DNA of 64,000 nucleotides from Myrmaecium sp. VS I D KN 1 (lineage: Eukaryota > Ascomycota > Dothideomycetes > Valsariales > Valsariaceae): the NCBI GenBank assembly GCA_019775845.1, contig JADQAV010000002.1, forward strand, positions 62,001-126,000, in the 5' to 3' direction. The stretch's first letter is position 1. Every line of letters begins with the position of its first letter. A program made the translations under genes and the position numbers. The notes under the pieces were generated by a model. The model had not been told where the DNA came from. It searched no databases and saw only the letters and a program-made list of their open reading frames with translations. Shown here piece after piece: positions 14,932 to 24,559 of the stretch.

Positions 14932-17900
14932 ATGGCGGCCGACTCCCCCACGCGTCGTCTGGCGAAGTCGCTGCGAGGGTTCCGCTGCAGTTCCGTTCTT
15001 CTCGTCAGCATTGCGTCGCTGTTGACGGTGACCACCGCCGCCGCCGCGTCGGTGGCCGTTCCCGAACCGCTTCTGCAGAATCATCACGCCCTCAACATTC
15101 ACGGTAATGTCACTTCTCACGGCGCGACGTTCGAGGCGCTGCCGCTTCTGCCTTTGCAACAGGCGCCTGCTCCCGTCAATGGGACTGGTGCTCGTCAACT
15201 GCAAGCGAGGGCGGGCAACACTGACCGTGACGACGAACCGAAAGCGACTGACGAAGTCTGGAACGAGGTGTTGGACCGTGGCAAGCAGCTTTTCTGCCTG
15301 ATCGAAGCGGACGCTGATGAGGCTGCCAACATTCTCAAGCATACCAGCGTTGAATCCCAGTGGAAGTATAAAGACCTCGAAGCTCAAGGCTGGGTCAACG
15401 CTCCCGCCAAGGACGGAGTGAACTTCCTGACCGAATCCAAGATATCCGAAGTCTTGAAGTTCCTCAAAGTGACTGCCGAACCGACCCTCGTCAAGTGGGA
15501 GCACACTACCAAATCCGCTGACTCCAAGTACGCGCCGAACTATGGTAATTTCGAGAACTTCTACAACCCCAAGGATGGCTACATTGCCGCATACGACGTC
15601 TATTCTCCCAGTCAAGCTATCAAGACATGGCACAATGGTCCGGTTCCTGTACTTCCTCCGCTCAAACGGTGGTCGGATGTTTCCTTTCTGGAATACGTTC
15701 ACCAGGCCGAGCAAGCAAAGCAAGATGTCAACAAGCTCAAGTACATTCTCCATATCAACATTGTCAACTCCGTCACCAACGCGGTTTCCAAGCGCGCTCT
15801 GGGCAATGAAGAACGCAAGCGGTTCCCTGGCGAGCTCTTTACTTTCGATGACCATAACCCCGAGGAGAAAGAGAAGGCACTTGCTCTCTTGGGCACTCCA
15901 AACGGTGCTGGTGCAGCGTGGCTATTGATTAACCATAAGAAAGAGCTTCACGGTAAAACGCTGAACTACATCCTGGTGTTCAACAACGATGTCGACACTC
16001 CTTCCGCTCCAGATGGAGTGCCGTGCATGTTGATCGCGTTCAAAGATGAGTTTTCCGAAATTGCTACCGTCGGCGAATCAAACGGCGAGGTCGAGAAGAC
16101 TGCCCTTCGTCGCCGTGACTGGGCTGTGAATACCGCCCCAGCTGATGCCAGTCAATTCGAAACAGCTCGGCAATCAGGACAGAAGCTGATGTGCCTTGTC
16201 AACGCCGATGAAGAGGAAGCAACTGCCATGCTCAAGCAACCAGCCCAGGTCACATTCACCTTCGACGACCTTCATGAATGGGGCTGGTCAAATCCCAAAG
16301 AGGCGTACGAGTACGATTGGGGACTGATCAAGATGGACTCGCTCATCACGGGGCTGAAGTTCGCCGAGCCCCCCGGGATGACAGGCATCCACACGTGGTG
16401 GGTTCACCGACAAGCCGTCACGAAGAACAACCGCGCCTACGAGGCCACCTTCGGCGACTACAGCCAGCTCATGGACGTCGAAGACGGCGCCATCTTCGCG
16501 CTCAACATCAGAAGCCCAGACGAGATGCAGCGGCGTCGGCGGGACCAGGGACGTCCGATGGAAAACATGATCCCCCTCCGCCGCTGGTCCGACGTCACGT
16601 TTCTGGAGTACGAGCGCCTGGCAGTCGACTTCGACGAACCCGTCACCAAGCTGAAGTATGTCATCCATGACAACGTTGTCAACCTTGAAACCCGCAAGAT
16701 TGTCGTTGCGGCCCTGCAGGCCCGGCTTGGTGGTGATGCTCGCACCCTCCAGCTCCCGCGCTGGCCGGGCGTGACTTTCACGATGGACTCGCCGGAAGGT
16801 CTTGCGCTGCTTGGCTCTCCGAACGGCAAGGGAGCGGCGTGGTTGTTAATCAATCACAAGAAGCAATTGCCCGATAAGACGATTCACTCGATCACGTTGT
16901 TTGCGAGCGATGGCGGCGAGGACATTTATGACGGCGACCATTTGTGCATGCTCATTCAGTATGGAGACAGCAGTGCTTCCGCGCAGGTGGAAGAACGAGA
17001 TGAAGGCTATGTTTCTGGCAGCATGCTCCAGGGTAACGCCCTTGATGTTCGACAACCTGGGCATCTTTCTCTTAGTCCACGAATGCATGGAACAACCCCT
17101 CGGCCTTCTCGCCTGGTTTCACGGACTGAAGATGACACCCCTGCAAGTAACCAAGTCTGGGACGATGCAGTCAGTCGCGGTAAGCAGCTTCTTCGCTTGA
17201 TCAACATGTCGGAGAAAGCTGCGGATCAGAAGTTGGATGGTCACTCCCAGAGCGAATGGACTTACGATGACCTCGATAAGAACGGCTGGGTTAAGGACAC
17301 GACGGCGAAGCAATCGGGAACGATATTCGATCGGATCCAGCTGCAAAAGGGTTTCGAGGCGCTCAAGTTGCCGCTTACTGCCGATGCCAAAGCAACCCAA
17401 TTGAACAGATACACACATGATAAGAACTCTCAAGATGGGAAGTACGAGGCAACCTGGGGTTACTATGAGAACGGTTACGACGTCAAATCTGGTTGGATTG
17501 CCGCCCTCGATGTTTACTCTCCATATTCAATGCTGGTTGAGAACGATGAGCCAGCATCGGATGCGCCACCGCTGAACACATGGTCCGACGTCTCCTTTCT
17601 TCAGTACCAGAAGCAGGCCACCGACGTACACGCGGACATCGCCAAACTGGAATACGTCTTCTCAATCCAGATCATCAACAAAGTGACCAACTCCATCACG
17701 AGGCGTGCTCTGAACAATCGTGGCGAGAAAGGACGACCGCGATGGCCCGGCGTGACGTTCAAGATGGATGGGAGCGACGAGAATGCCATGGCTCTGCTAG
17801 GCTCTCCGAACGTCTATGGCACTGCGTGGATGCTAATCAACCACAAGAAAGCGTTTCCAAACCATCGCATCACCTCCATCGCGGTGGTTAACAATGATGC

Positions 17901-20900
17901 CACTTCGACGTCCCAGCCCAATGGGAAGAAATGCATTGTTATTCAGATGGACCCTAACGGTGGCAAGTCTACATCATCCACAGCTCTAACTTCACGAGCG
18001 ACGCGCTCACGTCGCTCGTCTGTCGGCGGAACCAATGACTACGACGATGTTAAACCGGCTTCTGATAAGGACTGGGACAAGCTGGTCACCAAAGGCCGCA
18101 ATCTACTCTGCCGAATGAAGGAGACCGAGGCGGAAGCATATCAGCGCCTCGGTACCGCAGCACAATCCACATTCGTGTATGCAGATCTGGAAAAGTATGG
18201 CTGGACCAAGGCGGGAGAGTACACCGAGGACGATTACGACTTCAGCGATATGAAAAACTATCTTCCACAGCTGGGGTTTTCGATGGAGCCAGGAGAGTTT
18301 GTCAAAAACGTGCCATATCTGCATTCAACAGACACGGAAGTGGACGAGGTAGAGTATGAACATACCCAAGCGCTCTTCTCTAACGTCTACGACCTTCAAA
18401 ACGGTGCCATCTTCGCTTGCAACAGCAGGAGTCCGCAGGGCGTCAATGATGAGCTGAAGAGCGAAGGTCAGGAGATTATTACTCCTCTCCCGCCACTGCA
18501 GCGCTGGTCCGATGTGAGCTTCCTGGCCTGGAAAAGCCTCGCGCAAACAGCACTGCAACCCATCGACAAACTGACCTACGTCATGCGTGTCAATGTCATC
18601 AACGAGGTCACCCTTAGTACCATCAAGCGGGCCATGAAAGAGAAAACCGGCAAGGTGAAGCTACAACCAATGGGGACGACCTTCGATTTGAACAGTGATG
18701 AAGGACTGGCTCTGCTTGCGACTCCCAATGTTCTTGGTGTTGCCTGGATGCTGATTAACCACAAGCGGGAATTTCCTGGAAAGATTGTCTCCACGATCAC
18801 CGTCCTCGAACTCACCGGTGAAGATTCATGGTTCGGCGAACCGATGGTGGGCGTGGTGATCCGTTTGGACCAACAGCAGGGACGAGCCTCTTCCGGGAGA
18901 ATTATCGCCTTGAGAGATACGGACCATGTACGTCGCGAGCAAGAGGATGGAATCCCCCTAGCGAGCGACAGCCAGTGGAAGACCTCCGTTCAGAGGGGCA
19001 ACGAATTGATGTGCCTCATTTCGGCTACTGAAGAAGACGGCAGTAAGCAGTTTGGCTCTCCCTTGCAAGCGACCTTTACCAGTGATCAGCTCAAGACCTA
19101 TGGATGGAGAATCGGTTCCACAAAGCCAGTCAACAGCTGGTGGTTCTGCGATCTTGACGAGGCTCTGACCAAGATGGGTTTCCCGGCCAAACCGGATGCA
19201 GACAGAGTCTCCAGAATCGTCATCAACCACAACACTACCGTTGATGCAGATGGTAAGCACTATGAAGCTACGGAGGCTACTTACGACTGCGTGTACGATC
19301 CGGTGGACGGCATTCTTTTTGCAAACGACATCCACAGTCCCGTTGCTAAGTCGGCAGATCTTGTTGCATGGGGAAAACCACCGATTGATCCCCTCCCACC
19401 CCTTGGTCGCTGGTCCGATGTCGCGTTCCTTCTGTACAATCAGCAAGCAGAGAAGACCAAACAGTCTCTGGCGAATCTGAAGTATGTCATCCACCACAGT
19501 GTTGCTAACGTTGAAACCATCTCGATGTGGAAGACGGCACTCAAGAATACTGGTAAAACGCTGCAACGATGGCCAGGAGCAAAATTCGAGTCGGGCTCGG
19601 ACGAGTTCCTGGCGCTTCTTGGTACTCCCAATGGCAGAGGAGCGGCATGGCTGCTTGCAACTCACAAGAAGGAATTCCCGAACAAAACGGTCAAGTCCAT
19701 CACTGTCCTCCTTGACGCTGGTGGTGGCGATGGCAGCAATCCGGATCTGGTGGATCAGCCGTGCCTCATCATAGAGTTTGCGGACAAAGTAAAAAACCCC
19801 GAGAGCAAGGATCCTACATCTTCACTGGATAAGCGTCATGAACCCACCCAGAGCTGGAATGGGCCAGTGGCTCTGCAACGCCGTACTGATCCTTGGGAGA
19901 TGTATCCCGCTGCCGACGACGAAGACTGGGCCGATGCTATCGAGACTGGCAATAAGCTACTTTGCCTAATAGCCGCCGATGAGAACGCCGCTTCCCGGTT
20001 GCTCAATACGCCCGCTCAATCCACATGGACGTTTGATGATCTTGCCCGATGGGGTTGGGTGCGGCGAAACGAGGCACTTCTCTCAAGTTGGTCGCAGGTC
20101 AACGATATCTCCAATGCTCTCCAGTCTCTTGAATTCCACCCATCGCCCCCGCCAATTACCGTCAAGGTGAACTATGGTCATGATCACACGGTACGAGGCT
20201 CGAACGGGGTCATATACCCTGAGACGGAGGGACAATACGTCAATATATATGACCCGATTGATGGTGCTATCTTCTGCCTGTTCACATTCAGTCCTGCAGC
20301 CATGGCAATGAGTGAAATTCCGCCGATCACTAATGTTGTGCCATTGTCACGGCTCTCGGACGTTGCCTTTGTTGTTTATCGCGAGTACGCCGAGCAAGCC
20401 CGAGTTGACGTTTCCAATTTGCGATACATATTCCGTCACTCCATCATGAATATGAAGACCATCGCCGTCATGAAACGGGCCTGGGAACAGCGAACAGGTC
20501 AGAAGAAGTTCTGGGGATGGCCCGGTGAATCGTTCACGCCAGATACGGAAGAAGGACAAGCCCTGCTCGGGACGCCGAATGCGAAGGCCGCATCGTGGAT
20601 TTTAATCAACCACAAGCGCGAGCTGCCTCGCCACCGAATCTCGCATGTCACCATCTGGGCTTCGACTCCGCAAAATACGGCTGATTATCAAATGCTTATT
20701 GAGTTCTCGGGCACTTCGCAGCATGTGAAGCGTGATGTCGCTCGGGAACACGCCTTTCTACAACGCCATGCGCCACACGTGCTTCCTCGTAACGGTCACA
20801 TGAATCAATCAAGTGAGTTGGTTGTCCCGCCTTCAGAGACTGGTCCAATCAAACGCCATCGTCTGCGTCGCCGAAACCTCTCTCCAGCGGATGACAAAAT

Positions 20901-22977
20901 CTGGGCAGCGGCTATTGACGAAGGTACACAATTCAAGTGCCTGGTGAACGCGAGCGAAGCAGATGCCGACCAGATGCTCAAGAGCAGCGGCAAAGGTCCA
21001 GCCCAGTCCGCTTGGACTTACGATCAGCTCAAAGAGTATGGCTGGGAAATCGAGCGTGAAGACCAAGTGGACGATTACTTGGTTCTGAACATCTCGAAAG
21101 CATTGAAGGGCATGGGCTTCCCGGACAAACCTACCAAGAACTCCCTTCGGGTTTACTACGACCATACCAAGCAGAGCACTGTCAACGGCGTCACGTATCC
21201 AAGCATCTTCGGCCGCTACAGGAACTACTTCTTCCTTGACCAAGGCACGATCGTTTCAACGGCTAGTCAGAGCCCACTGTATACCGCACAGCAGAACTCT
21301 CCGCCTCTTGGTCCAGTCGTCCCATTAGGAACGTGGTCTGAAATCACCTTTCAAGAGTACAAACAGCGTTGCGGAAAGGCCGGTGTACCGGTCACTCAAC
21401 TCAAACGGGTAATTCGACACTACATCACGGACCTTGAAACCGAACAGGTTCTCCGGCGTGCTCTGGTCAATAAGAACGGCAATCCGAACGAGCAGGAGTG
21501 GCCTGGCGATTATTTCGATATCACGTCCGATGAAGGTCTTGCGCTCTTGGGCGCCCCCAGTGGTAGCGGAGAAGCGTGGTTCCTTATCAACCACAAGAAA
21601 GAGTTGCCTAATCACCAGATCGTTGGTTTCCGCATATTCAAGACAGAGACGGATTCGAATGACATGTCGGGCGCCGCACCCGGTCTTGCTATCTCGATTG
21701 AATTCGAACAGACGTCTGCAACGAAAGCTCGCAGCCTGGCCAGGCATGATTCTTTTGACCTGTTGACCGACCTGCTATTGCTCGAGGGAACTCCCGAGAA
21801 AGCTCCTGTATCTCCATTCATTGACCATTTCCATCGCCGGCAGAGTTTCTCAGCTACTTCGGACGACGATTGGAACAAGCTTGTCTGCAAAGGCAAGCAG
21901 CTTCTCGACTTGATCTCCATGACCGAAGACGAGGCAACCAAGGCAATGGACGCTCCCTCACAGAGCACCTGGACGTTCTCGGATCTCGAAAAGTACGGTT
22001 GGACCTACGAGTACTCATGGAACAAAGCGCTCTACTCCCGACGCGACCTCGAGTCCGCACTGAAAGAGCTGAACATCCTCCCATTCACGTCCCCCTCCGA
22101 CGATTCAACCGAGCTCAACTACTGGAGACACCTGAAAGCCAGCACCATCGACGGCACCCACTATCCCGCAACCGCAGGTTTCTACACCAACACGTACGAT
22201 CCCGCTCATGGTCTAATCATCGCCGAAGGCGCCTTCAGCTGTGAGCACATGGCCGAGAAGCAAGGAATCAGCGGGCCAATGCCTCCGATGAGACGGTGGT
22301 CCGACGTCAGCTATCTAGAGTACCAACACGAAGCGAGCAAGCTGAACGTGCCGCTCGGCAACCTGCGCTCCTTCTTCTCCATCGGCATCATCAACGAGAC
22401 ATCCAACCACGCCGCCGAACGCGCGCTCCAGAACATCGGGCAGACCCGCGCCGTGTGGCCGGGTCACACCTTTTCCATGGACACGAACGAGGGCAAAGCG
22501 CTGCTCGGCACGCCGAACTCCCTTGGTCTCGCGTGGATGCTCATTCAGCACAAGAAGGAATTTCCTAACAAGCGGATCGCCAATATCACCGTGTTCAAGG
22601 ACGAGACTGCCGGTCAGCCGGCGATCTTCATTCGTCTACAAGATGGGGACAGCGCAAGCACGACGGGAAAACCGGCCGTTGCTCCCAAACCGTCTTCGCT
22701 CAAGGGTAGCCCGGTTACGGTTGGCTCTCCCATTGTTGTTCTCAGCCCTCGGGCTCCGCCGAAGCCTACTTCGCTGAAGGGTAATGCGGTTACTACATCC
22801 ACTTTGGCTGCGTTGGAAGATGTCTCCGTCTTGACATCTACTGAACTGCCATCGCCTACGAGACCGGAGGTTCCTCCTAAGCTTTCTTCTCTGCAGACTC
22901 GCCAATTGAACCCGCTGCTTTCTGTGCCTTCTGCATCTTCTTTGGCGCATACGCCGTTGGTTTTGTCGGTGGCATGA
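14932..22977 (+). CDS. Giant secreted-type protein of eight tandem units with dibasic linkers
   Basis: Intronless frame. I chose ATG 14932 (2681 residues) rather than the upstream ATG 14623 because it is followed by a basic stretch and a hydrophobic core (SSVLLVSIASLLTVTTAAAA), as in a signal peptide or signal anchor. Eight diverged units start near residues 104, 396, 733, 1041, 1342, 1658, 1984 and 2304. Each follows the same order: an acidic Asp-x-x-Trp entry, G-x-x-L-x-CLI, W-x-(Y/F)-x-DL-x-x-x-GW, RWSDV-(S/T/A)-FLEY, a (K/R)RAL helix, WPG-x-x-F and the core ALLGTPNG-x-GAAWLLINHKKE. Dibasic sites (RRR393, RR1027, RR1334, KR1634/RR1650, KR1933/RRR near 1980, RR2302) lie in the linkers before units 2 and 4-8. 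Units 1 and 3 have only single Arg. The tail has three KPxSLKG-like minirepeats. I know no named family for the unit. Kex2 processing in the secretory pathway is inferred. A single-unit paralogue lies directly downstream. Confidence 0.88.
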   Translation: MAADSPTRRLAKSLRGFRCSSVLLVSIASLLTVTTAAAASVAVPEPLLQNHHALNIHGNVTSHGATFEALPLLPLQQAPAPVNGTGARQLQARAGNTDRDDEPKATDEVWNEVLDRGKQLFCLIEADADEAANILKHTSVESQWKYKDLEAQGWVNAPAKDGVNFLTESKISEVLKFLKVTAEPTLVKWEHTTKSADSKYAPNYGNFENFYNPKDGYIAAYDVYSPSQAIKTWHNGPVPVLPPLKRWSDVSFLEYVHQAEQAKQDVNKLKYILHINIVNSVTNAVSKRALGNEERKRFPGELFTFDDHNPEEKEKALALLGTPNGAGAAWLLINHKKELHGKTLNYILVFNNDVDTPSAPDGVPCMLIAFKDEFSEIATVGESNGEVEKTALRRRDWAVNTAPADASQFETARQSGQKLMCLVNADEEEATAMLKQPAQVTFTFDDLHEWGWSNPKEAYEYDWGLIKMDSLITGLKFAEPPGMTGIHTWWVHRQAVTKNNRAYEATFGDYSQLMDVEDGAIFALNIRSPDEMQRRRRDQGRPMENMIPLRRWSDVTFLEYERLAVDFDEPVTKLKYVIHDNVVNLETRKIVVAALQARLGGDARTLQLPRWPGVTFTMDSPEGLALLGSPNGKGAAWLLINHKKQLPDKTIHSITLFASDGGEDIYDGDHLCMLIQYGDSSASAQVEERDEGYVSGSMLQGNALDVRQPGHLSLSPRMHGTTPRPSRLVSRTEDDTPASNQVWDDAVSRGKQLLRLINMSEKAADQKLDGHSQSEWTYDDLDKNGWVKDTTAKQSGTIFDRIQLQKGFEALKLPLTADAKATQLNRYTHDKNSQDGKYEATWGYYENGYDVKSGWIAALDVYSPYSMLVENDEPASDAPPLNTWSDVSFLQYQKQATDVHADIAKLEYVFSIQIINKVTNSITRRALNNRGEKGRPRWPGVTFKMDGSDENAMALLGSPNVYGTAWMLINHKKAFPNHRITSIAVVNNDATSTSQPNGKKCIVIQMDPNGGKSTSSTALTSRATRSRRSSVGGTNDYDDVKPASDKDWDKLVTKGRNLLCRMKETEAEAYQRLGTAAQSTFVYADLEKYGWTKAGEYTEDDYDFSDMKNYLPQLGFSMEPGEFVKNVPYLHSTDTEVDEVEYEHTQALFSNVYDLQNGAIFACNSRSPQGVNDELKSEGQEIITPLPPLQRWSDVSFLAWKSLAQTALQPIDKLTYVMRVNVINEVTLSTIKRAMKEKTGKVKLQPMGTTFDLNSDEGLALLATPNVLGVAWMLINHKREFPGKIVSTITVLELTGEDSWFGEPMVGVVIRLDQQQGRASSGRIIALRDTDHVRREQEDGIPLASDSQWKTSVQRGNELMCLISATEEDGSKQFGSPLQATFTSDQLKTYGWRIGSTKPVNSWWFCDLDEALTKMGFPAKPDADRVSRIVINHNTTVDADGKHYEATEATYDCVYDPVDGILFANDIHSPVAKSADLVAWGKPPIDPLPPLGRWSDVAFLLYNQQAEKTKQSLANLKYVIHHSVANVETISMWKTALKNTGKTLQRWPGAKFESGSDEFLALLGTPNGRGAAWLLATHKKEFPNKTVKSITVLLDAGGGDGSNPDLVDQPCLIIEFADKVKNPESKDPTSSLDKRHEPTQSWNGPVALQRRTDPWEMYPAADDEDWADAIETGNKLLCLIAADENAASRLLNTPAQSTWTFDDLARWGWVRRNEALLSSWSQVNDISNALQSLEFHPSPPPITVKVNYGHDHTVRGSNGVIYPETEGQYVNIYDPIDGAIFCLFTFSPAAMAMSEIPPITNVVPLSRLSDVAFVVYREYAEQARVDVSNLRYIFRHSIMNMKTIAVMKRAWEQRTGQKKFWGWPGESFTPDTEEGQALLGTPNAKAASWILINHKRELPRHRISHVTIWASTPQNTADYQMLIEFSGTSQHVKRDVAREHAFLQRHAPHVLPRNGHMNQSSELVVPPSETGPIKRHRLRRRNLSPADDKIWAAAIDEGTQFKCLVNASEADADQMLKSSGKGPAQSAWTYDQLKEYGWEIEREDQVDDYLVLNISKALKGMGFPDKPTKNSLRVYYDHTKQSTVNGVTYPSIFGRYRNYFFLDQGTIVSTASQSPLYTAQQNSPPLGPVVPLGTWSEITFQEYKQRCGKAGVPVTQLKRVIRHYITDLETEQVLRRALVNKNGNPNEQEWPGDYFDITSDEGLALLGAPSGSGEAWFLINHKKELPNHQIVGFRIFKTETDSNDMSGAAPGLAISIEFEQTSATKARSLARHDSFDLLTDLLLLEGTPEKAPVSPFIDHFHRRQSFSATSDDDWNKLVCKGKQLLDLISMTEDEATKAMDAPSQSTWTFSDLEKYGWTYEYSWNKALYSRRDLESALKELNILPFTSPSDDSTELNYWRHLKASTIDGTHYPATAGFYTNTYDPAHGLIIAEGAFSCEHMAEKQGISGPMPPMRRWSDVSYLEYQHEASKLNVPLGNLRSFFSIGIINETSNHAAERALQNIGQTRAVWPGHTFSMDTNEGKALLGTPNSLGLAWMLIQHKKEFPNKRIANITVFKDETAGQPAIFIRLQDGDSASTTGKPAVAPKPSSLKGSPVTVGSPIVVLSPRAPPKPTSLKGNAVTTSTLAALEDVSVLTSTELPSPTRPEVPPKLSSLQTRQLNPLLSVPSASSLAHTPLVLSVA

Positions 22978-23432: not shown

Positions 23433-24559
23433 CTACGCCTGCGTCGGCAGCAACATGCCCGCCTCCGGCTCACCAATCTCAAACAGCACATTCACATTCC
23501 CCATCCCCTTATCATCCTGAAAAACCGTCGCCTTCGTCACCACAAGGCCAGCAAACGCCTCCTTCCAACCAACCAGCATCCACGCAACACCAACACCATT
23601 CGGGGTCGCCAGCAGCGCCTGGCCCTCCTGGGAATCCATCGGGACAGTGATACCCGGCCACGCGGGCAGGCTATCCAAGCCCTCCATCCAGATCTCATCG
23701 ATGACGTCGAGGGTGACTTGGTTCTTGATGCCGAGGCGGAAGATGTAGCGGGGCGGCGCGGGGGCCGCGGTGGAGGGCAGGACGAGGTCCTGCGGCGAAT
23801 GCATGTAGGCCAGGTAACTCACGTCAGACCACCGGCTTAGCTTGGGCCAGACGCCGTGCGGGTCCCGCTGCTGGATGGCGGCGCGGGGGGAGGTGTTGTC
23901 GACGCACATTATGGCGTGGTAGGCGGGGACGTAGTAGTTGTAGTATTGGCCGTGGGTTGCCTGTGAAGGGGAGTAAGGTTAGTATGGATTAGTGTGTGGA
24001 GGAGGGAAGGGAGTGTCTGTTTTACCGGATAGGTTTTGCCATCTTGAGTGAAGTCACGGTACTGGAACCACTGGGTCTTGTAGAATGCCTTGTCGTCCTG
24101 GGGAATGCCGGCGTAGTCCATGGCCTTCTTGATGGGCAGGCGAATGGGAAAGTCGAGCTCAGTTGTGATTGGGCCTTCGTCCCAGCCATACTTGGTCAAG
24201 TCGTCGAACACCCACTTGCTCTGCGTATCCTGACCGCCTTGAAGCTTGTTGACTTCCTCTGCAGAAATGGTCATGTAATGAAGTAACTTCTCGCCTTTGC
24301 AGACCAACTGGTTCCAGTCCGTGTCCGGAACGGCGCGACGGTGAGGCTGAGGCCAGTGTACCTTAGGGACGACCGAGTCAGTCGGGTGGGCATTGTATCC
24401 TTGGTGTACGACCTCGCCTGTGGGCTGGAACGGCGCCTTGTTGAAGTTTGGAACGGGTTCCCAATGAACGGGAGGCGTCGGGGAGTCTTTCAGTGCGAGG
24501 ATCAGAGCTGGCATGGTTACCAGGGCCCCAAGGACCGGCAGAAATCCCTTCAATTGCAT
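23433..24559 (-). CDS. Single-unit paralogue of the giant repeat protein
   Basis: Two exons, 24559-24026 and 23960-23433, joined by a phase-0 intron (GTAAAA...TTCACAG), give 353 residues. ATG 24559 is the first ATG in frame and starts a signal peptide (QLKGFLPVLGALVTMPALIL). After a proline-rich propeptide-like segment comes HRR, then AVPDTDW, the same dibasic-then-Asp-x-x-Trp entry seen in the giant protein. One unit follows: KGEKLLHYM, SKWVFDDLTKYGW, RWSDVSYLAY, WPGITVPMDSQEG and ALLATPNGVGVAWMLVGWKE. The INHKKE core is changed to VGWKE and the (K/R)RAL dibasic is lost. The gene is convergent with the giant gene and probably shares ancestry with one of its units. Function is unknown; secretion and Kex2 maturation are inferred. 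Confidence 0.85.

Follow-up and report, generated by a model that had tools for sequence, protein, structure and literature searches.

The window, a stretch of 64,000 nucleotides covering positions 62001-126000 of contig C10 in a genome of 25.66 Mb and 66 contigs, contains a fungal gene that very likely encodes a tandemly repetitive polyprotein from which Kex2 releases eight secreted proteins of 33-41 kDa. We infer the cutting, its position and the export of the products from the cell. The precursor would enter the secretory pathway via its hydrophobic N-terminus, its eight units would each fold independently, and Kex2 of the late Golgi would cleave the flexible linkers behind the Arg of an Lx(K/R)R, RR or LxxR site. 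Besides one pro-segment, this would yield eight secreted proteins of 33-41 kDa, separate, diverged and equal in number.

An intronless gene with eight diverged units

The 8-kb intronless frame of the preliminary description was confirmed as one uninterrupted frame of 2,681 codons on the forward strand, with its ATG at 14932, its stop codon at 22975-22977 and no internal stop. Its parts, and a neighbouring gene considered further below, are the following.

14932..22977, + strand: intronless ORF, 2,681 aa, putative eight-unit polyprotein precursor (298 kDa)
14932..15057, + strand: N-terminal basic region and hydrophobic stretch (aa 1-42), signal peptide or signal anchor by hydropathy
15058..15210, + strand: putative pro-segment preceding unit 1, LQAR at its end (15199-15210)
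15211..16116, + strand: unit 1, domain aa 104-380, predicted product 33.9 kDa, terminal LRRR site 16105-16116
16117..17124, + strand: unit 2, domain aa 403-689, predicted product 37.8 kDa, terminal LVSR site 17113-17124
17125..18015, + strand: unit 3, domain aa 736-1021, predicted product 33.1 kDa, terminal RSRR site 18004-18015
18016..18936, + strand: unit 4, domain aa 1042-1322, predicted product 34.5 kDa, terminal HVRR site 18925-18936
18937..19884, + strand: unit 5, domain aa 1344-1635, predicted product 34.8 kDa, KR 19831-19836, LQRR 19873-19884; structure modelled
19885..20874, + strand: unit 6, domain aa 1660-1936, predicted product 37.5 kDa, linker KR 20728-20733 and 20851-20856, LRRR 20863-20874
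20875..21840, + strand: unit 7, domain aa 1985-2267, predicted product 36.0 kDa, terminal FHRR site 21829-21840
21841..22668, + strand: unit 8, domain aa 2308-2579, predicted product including the tail 41.2 kDa
22669..22974, + strand: C-terminal Pro/Ser-rich tail (aa 2580-2681), three PKxxSL-like motifs
23433..24559, - strand: single-unit relative, 353 aa, hydrophobic N-terminus, pro-segment, RR immediately before the unit

The signal-like segment noted earlier at the N-terminus proved to be hydrophobic, with a Kyte-Doolittle maximum of 2.51 over 11 residues. Its AAAASVA looks cleavable by eye, and the segment could be a membrane anchor instead of a cleaved signal; judged by hydropathy only, the array protein would be secreted. 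The neighbouring frames include ordinary genes (NmrA-like, glutathione S-transferase, MmgE/PrpD, SET domain, Rad10/ERCC1 and sugar transporter), and a Pfam scan of 20 frames of the window gave a match at E 0.001 for six.

A search of the array protein with the unit profile returned the eight diverged copies that had been described, each at E 3e-75 or better. They were 29-37% identical to unit 1, and 24 alignment columns were invariant across all eight. The string RWSDVSFLEY, listed earlier as a shared core, is exact in unit 1 and varies in the other units, and the products, put at about 30 kDa, are instead expected at 33-41 kDa. Of the 25 positions that at least 80% of family members conserve, each window unit kept 20-24, the median of 121 full units being 22 of 25, and none of the eight looks decayed by this sequence measure. 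Conserved residues were spread across the whole unit in the family alignment. The best-conserved polar positions were S151 (98%), D152 (97%), N182 (94%) and H236 (88%, with R in 17 of 170); no convincing catalytic triad was found among the conserved polar positions.

The unit defines an unnamed fungal family

Comparison of the array protein, its eight units and 56 family members with Pfam, NCBIfam and PDB sequences gave weak matches only, each in one member; by these sequence comparisons the family is unnamed and fits no family of the three collections. The profile search for relatives proposed in the preliminary description was carried out, and a search with an alignment showing the conserved blocks alone retrieved 564 proteins at E 10 or better. 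The best 120 of the 564 matches were all at E 5e-17 or better, and 120 of 120 also matched the unit profile. Querying with the whole protein or with an alignment of 11 rows returned one and four matches, respectively, a result limited by the short words drawn and not by a scarcity of relatives; for this reason the single match of the whole-protein search is no evidence that larger arrays, of more than three units, are missing elsewhere. No protein longer than 942 aa was present among the best 120 of 564, and longer arrays may exist in other fungi. Two or three units were carried by 31 relatives (nine with three and 22 with two, some of them partial) among the 125 proteins scanned, which comprised P0001-P0122 and three spliced copies.

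The relatives named among the best 120 of 564 came from Xanthoria, Gyalolechia, Blastenia, Aspergillus, Penicillium, Alternaria, Pyrenophora, Vermiconidia, Elasticomyces, Coniosporium, Trichodelitschia and others, all of which we take to be Pezizomycotina; Xanthoria, Gyalolechia, Blastenia and their kin are presumably lichen fungi. A search for prokaryotic relatives with one pattern gave 14 matches in genome contigs, none of which was confirmed by tblastn.

P0078, P0081, P0087, P0098, P0099, P0107 and P0109 form one branch without a strongly hydrophobic N-terminus and without a cleavage site before the unit (P0107 has one LxxR), and because of these two features the domain seems to work inside cells as well. 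The unit is joined to PF00085 in the annotated protein P0043 (Alternaria), to PF22607/PF01494 in P0097 (Neocucurbitaria) and to PF23726/PF10433/PF03178 in P0002 (Seirophora); these domain combinations are probably gene-model fusions. A conserved tail with KR about 45 aa before the C-terminus was seen in P0004, P0007, P0008, P0009, P0013, P0015, P0017, P0032, P0036 and P0040. In most of these tails another KR stands ahead of about 15 C-terminal residues that look amphipathic (like TGDVVKNFWTGLRLF) and may be released as an additional peptide.

Kex2-type sites stand in the linkers and before the first units

The linkers held more dibasic sites than their shuffled counterparts. When the letters of each linker were shuffled, with the sequences treated as unrelated and their kinship ignored, KR or RR was found in 6 of the 7 window linkers against a shuffle mean of 2.76 (p 0.008), at nine sites in these seven linkers against 3.52 (p 0.003), and in 29 of the 38 linkers of the relatives against 15.34, a count as high being reached in 0 of 10,000 shuffles. 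The dibasic sites claimed ahead of six units were found before units 2, 4, 5, 6, 7 and 8. Units 1 and 3, described as preceded by a single Arg alone, indeed have no dibasic, but the LQAR and LVSR before them fit the extended Kex2 motif LxxR.

As given in the sections of PMC8528282 used here, the Kex2 motif has Leu or another aliphatic residue at P4, a preferred but variable Lys at P2 and Arg at P1, and Kex2 sites are searched for as KR, RR or LxxR. The two-unit alignment A5, whose rows are the seven window linkers and 14 hand-chosen members of the 31 multi-unit relatives, had Arg at P1 in 21 of 21 rows, Lys or Arg at P2 in 17 of 21 and Leu at P4 in 13 of 21; the count at P1 is an upper bound, since the aligner may favour the stacking of Arg. 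These three features agree with the motif in those sections. LxxR, a loose motif, also stood ahead of the unit in Aspergillus and Penicillium relatives (LATR, LAER, LAAR and LAIR).

The site was not restricted to linkers. In proteins with a hydrophobic N-terminus, the 30 aa ahead of the first unit contained KR, RR or LxxR in 28 of 31 cases (shuffle mean 11.1); in proteins without one the count, 4 of 14, was only at shuffle level (shuffle mean 4.3). A rough hydropathy threshold (2.0 over 11 residues) separated the two classes, and the second, control set is mixed and also contains fragments and probable fusion models. Several of these control proteins begin like MSDLDALYQYL and appear intracellular, and in P0002, a probable fusion model of the same set, the unit is preceded by LLKR. 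KR and RR were both missing from 9 of the 38 linkers of the relatives, and 6 of 42 internal linkers lacked KR/RR as well as LxxR within 30 aa. The genome has one match to the P_proprotein (Kex2-type) domain, at E 2.8e-30.

In the lichen relatives the last linkers were 33-128 aa long and their letters drift, with Lx(K/R)R at the end in 8 of 8; eleven named lichen relatives have two or three units, of which this count covers eight, and the last linkers of the remaining three relatives end in LGKR, LVKR and HVKR. The first linkers of the three-unit lichen relatives carry KR with other residues at P4. These linkers bear on the alternative that the array protein is an uncut giant whose eight units stay linked and act jointly, for example as a multivalent binder or a wall protein, like the polyhydrophobins of Claviceps. 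Although secreted fungal proteins with tandem folds are known for hydrophobins (passages of PMC12375992), and disordered linkers would equally suit beads on a string, flexible linkers alone leave the aligned P1 Arg and the frequent P4 Leu unexplained. Nor would they account for an Lx(K/R)R that is kept in 8 of 8 lichen linkers while other letters drift, or for the presence of the same site in single-unit relatives, where there is nothing to hold together. We consider an uncut giant rather unlikely.

Predicted structure of the unit and of the linker

The structure prediction proposed for a single unit was run on unit 5. AlphaFold, given 56 rows, predicted an alpha/beta domain with a mean pLDDT of 93.2 and a pTM of 0.90. 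The model of units 4 and 5 together had a mean pLDDT of 87.1 and a pTM of 0.52; 406 of its 605 residues reached a pLDDT of at least 90, and the order of helices and strands was closely similar in both units. The pLDDT fell below 50 in four stretches: both ends, residues 571-575 and the linker at 289-309, which has RR at 306-307. Given the well-predicted units and this low-confidence linker, the predicted model shows distinct domains joined by an exposed linker. Packing of the units as one solenoid with buried linkers, named beforehand as an outcome that would speak against cutting, was not seen in the two-unit model.

Fold searches with the unit model pointed to GNAT-type, p300 and Rtt109 acetyltransferases, none of them at E 0.001 or better, and the Foldseek query TM against acetyltransferases was up to 0.23 among the matches listed. 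A Pfam scan of 56 members found no acetyltransferase family, and hhalign gave the unit a probability of 0.06% against a small GNAT profile (12 of 18 GNAT matches from the same genome), the GNAT control reaching 97%. A weak structural likeness speaks for kinship with GNAT, and the comparison of sequence profiles lends it no support. No match at E 0.001 or better was obtained for the unit model in a library of viral structures.

Dibasic sites inside the units

The window units also contain KR or RR within their domains, 18 against 7.8 expected, and are thus enriched in them. The depletion of internal dibasics that exposure to Kex2 would lead one to expect in secreted members was not found: members with a hydrophobic N-terminus had 116 against 96.8 expected (ratio 1.20), and those without one 27 against 23.4 (ratio 1.15). 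An internal (K/R)RAL had been reported for most units; we found (K/R)RA(L/M/W) in five of the eight (units 1, 3, 4, 6 and 7), but the strict (K/R)RAL in three. When the 18 sites were mapped on the unit-5 model, which is a predicted structure of a homologous unit and not a measurement of burial, they fell in blocks with pLDDT 92 or more, 11 in helix or strand and seven in ordered coil, three of these seven directly ahead of the WSD helix. All five (K/R)RA(L/M/W) sites mapped, in this prediction, to residue 200, in the middle of helix 192-205.

The excess of internal sites over composition would suit a peptide precursor of the KEP type, in which Kex2 cuts within the units too and releases short peptides; were all 30 sites used, the fragments would be 1-374 aa long. 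The cuts would, however, fall at irregular places in a unit that is predicted with confidence as one domain and whose conserved residues run through its whole length, and five of them would be in the middle of a helix. We regard a peptide precursor as highly improbable.

Single-unit genes and the origin of the arrays

Single units were found at four further sites of the genome, which the preliminary description does not mention: next to the array (24559-23433, - strand) and on contigs C11, C24 and C64. The neighbour lies tail-to-tail with the polyprotein gene and has one phase-0 intron of 65 bp at 24025-23961. Three of the four single-unit genes were predicted in full, each with a hydrophobic N-terminus, a pro-segment and RR or KR preceding the unit (in the contexts PQPHRR, DIKR and HPQRR). 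A phase-0 intron at one common site was present in these three genes (the neighbour of the array and loci L002 and L005). The C64 gene seems to have a second intron. The C24 copy (L004/L007) has no intron at the common site and seems to carry one farther upstream. Since the intron common to the three single-unit genes is missing from 8 of 8 array units, the founder of the array was probably intronless.

A tree of 112 units placed the eight of the window in one group (99/97). The units of two-unit Vermiconidia proteins were sisters of each other, and so were the last two units of Trichodelitschia. The first and second units of the lichen proteins formed separate old clades, P0022 apart. Forcing all 60 units of multi-unit proteins into one clade was rejected (AU p 4e-6, a guide only, because the group was picked after the tree was seen), and parsimony counted 10 changes between single and multi. 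Array units are thus spread over more than one clade, and a repeated origin of arrays is the most likely reading of this tree.

Each unit probably descends from a single-unit protein that bore a site, and tandem duplication would copy that site. Linker sites of such descent would be expected if Kex2 removed the N-terminal pro-segment alone, as in K2PP effectors, and left the duplicated copies mostly unused. An unused site should nevertheless decay like the remaining linker, and the old lichen arrays, with first and second units in different clades (except in P0022), have retained the linker site. Removal of the pro-segment alone thus appears quite improbable to us.

The suggestion of the preliminary description, a Kex2-processed polyprotein that would release several folded proteins, is supported by linker sites in excess of shuffles in the window and in the relatives, by the P1 Arg aligned in all linkers of A5, by the site ahead of the first unit, frequent where the N-terminus is hydrophobic and at shuffle level where it is not, by a two-unit model in which both units are folded and the linker with the site has low confidence, and by the mid-helix position of the five internal (K/R)RA sites.

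Comparison with known systems

In the passages of PMC3079579 on which we rely, tandemly repetitive polyproteins are called rare, the best characterised being the filaggrins and the nematode polyprotein allergens (NPAs); they are described as large precursors of repeated, similarly folded units with protease sites between them, introns are very small or none across the array, and NPA unit sequences may be highly diverse. The array resembles NPAs (ABA-1) and filaggrins as so described, and we liken them by design. It has eight tandem units, two neighbouring ones modelled alike; its 2,681 codons are uninterrupted, the three single-unit copies having an intron; and its inter-unit sites are regularly spaced, with KR or RR in 6 of 7 linkers and LVSR in the other. 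NPA units, of about 130 aa, are smaller and bind lipids, whereas the array units are of about 300 aa and fungal, and their cutting is deduced from the sites.

In the portions of PMC6339444 and PMC7329392 used here, KEPs are secreted proteins with three or more repeats interspaced by KR, RR or KK sites, the motifs being identical or nearly identical and peptides being released; the survey in PMC7329392 excluded proteins with separated sequences of more than 100 aa. The array is likewise a fungal precursor, secretory by hydropathy, with three or more repeats between KR or RR, but its units are folded, of about 300 aa and only 29-37% identical to unit 1, and fall outside the size and identity of KEPs so defined. 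K2PP effectors, which include SnTox3, ToxA and SIX1/4/6, give one mature protein each in the description consulted (PMC8528282). Digestion of Avr1 with Kex2 in vitro is reported in PMC10942635 to give additional bands. Single-unit relatives are like them by plan alone, with a pro-segment, KR, RR or LxxR and a folded secreted protein; the site in the first half, followed by a folded domain, was found in the neighbour and two copies, the fold being taken from the unit-5 model. The array repeats this plan eight times and as a whole lies outside the K2PP layout. The polyhydrophobins CFTH1 and CPPH1 of Claviceps have three to five tandem folded domains and, in the excerpts of PMC12375992 considered, are described as functional self-assembling multi-domain proteins. 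The array is similar to them as a fungal, putatively secreted protein with tandem folded domains and differs in that theirs have the hydrophobin fold and Gly/Asp-rich linkers and function as multi-domain proteins.

Implications

Because the units are only 29-37% identical to unit 1, our working guess is that the array is a one-gene route to a mixture of variants and not to the bulk of one protein, and a further working guess is that the units act outside the cell toward other organisms. A broader reading, to which we would give somewhat less than an even chance, is that a widespread, unnamed family of fungal secreted proteins turned more than once, independently, into Kex2-cut polyproteins, one gene giving an equimolar set of folded proteins, eight here, that differ in function and are directed at partners or competitors, and that the unit may be a new fold or a far-diverged GNAT-like one.

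By title, no fungal precursor with large folded units was found in the open-access literature searched, with narrow terms, on Kex2 repeat proteins, Kex2-cut polyproteins and multi-domain effectors. Such a class would escape the Kex2-repeat surveys, since, in the sections cited, these sought repeated peptides and one excluded sequences of more than 100 aa. The family is unannotated in Pfam, yet it is found in lichen fungi, moulds and others, Aspergillus niger among them. A single gene here probably gives a mixture of separate secreted proteins, and nematodes and skin offer the best-known examples of such a design. A fungal case, its units about 300 residues long and its family at least 120 members strong, would allow the origin of arrays, the loss of introns and the retention of sites to be compared across lineages.
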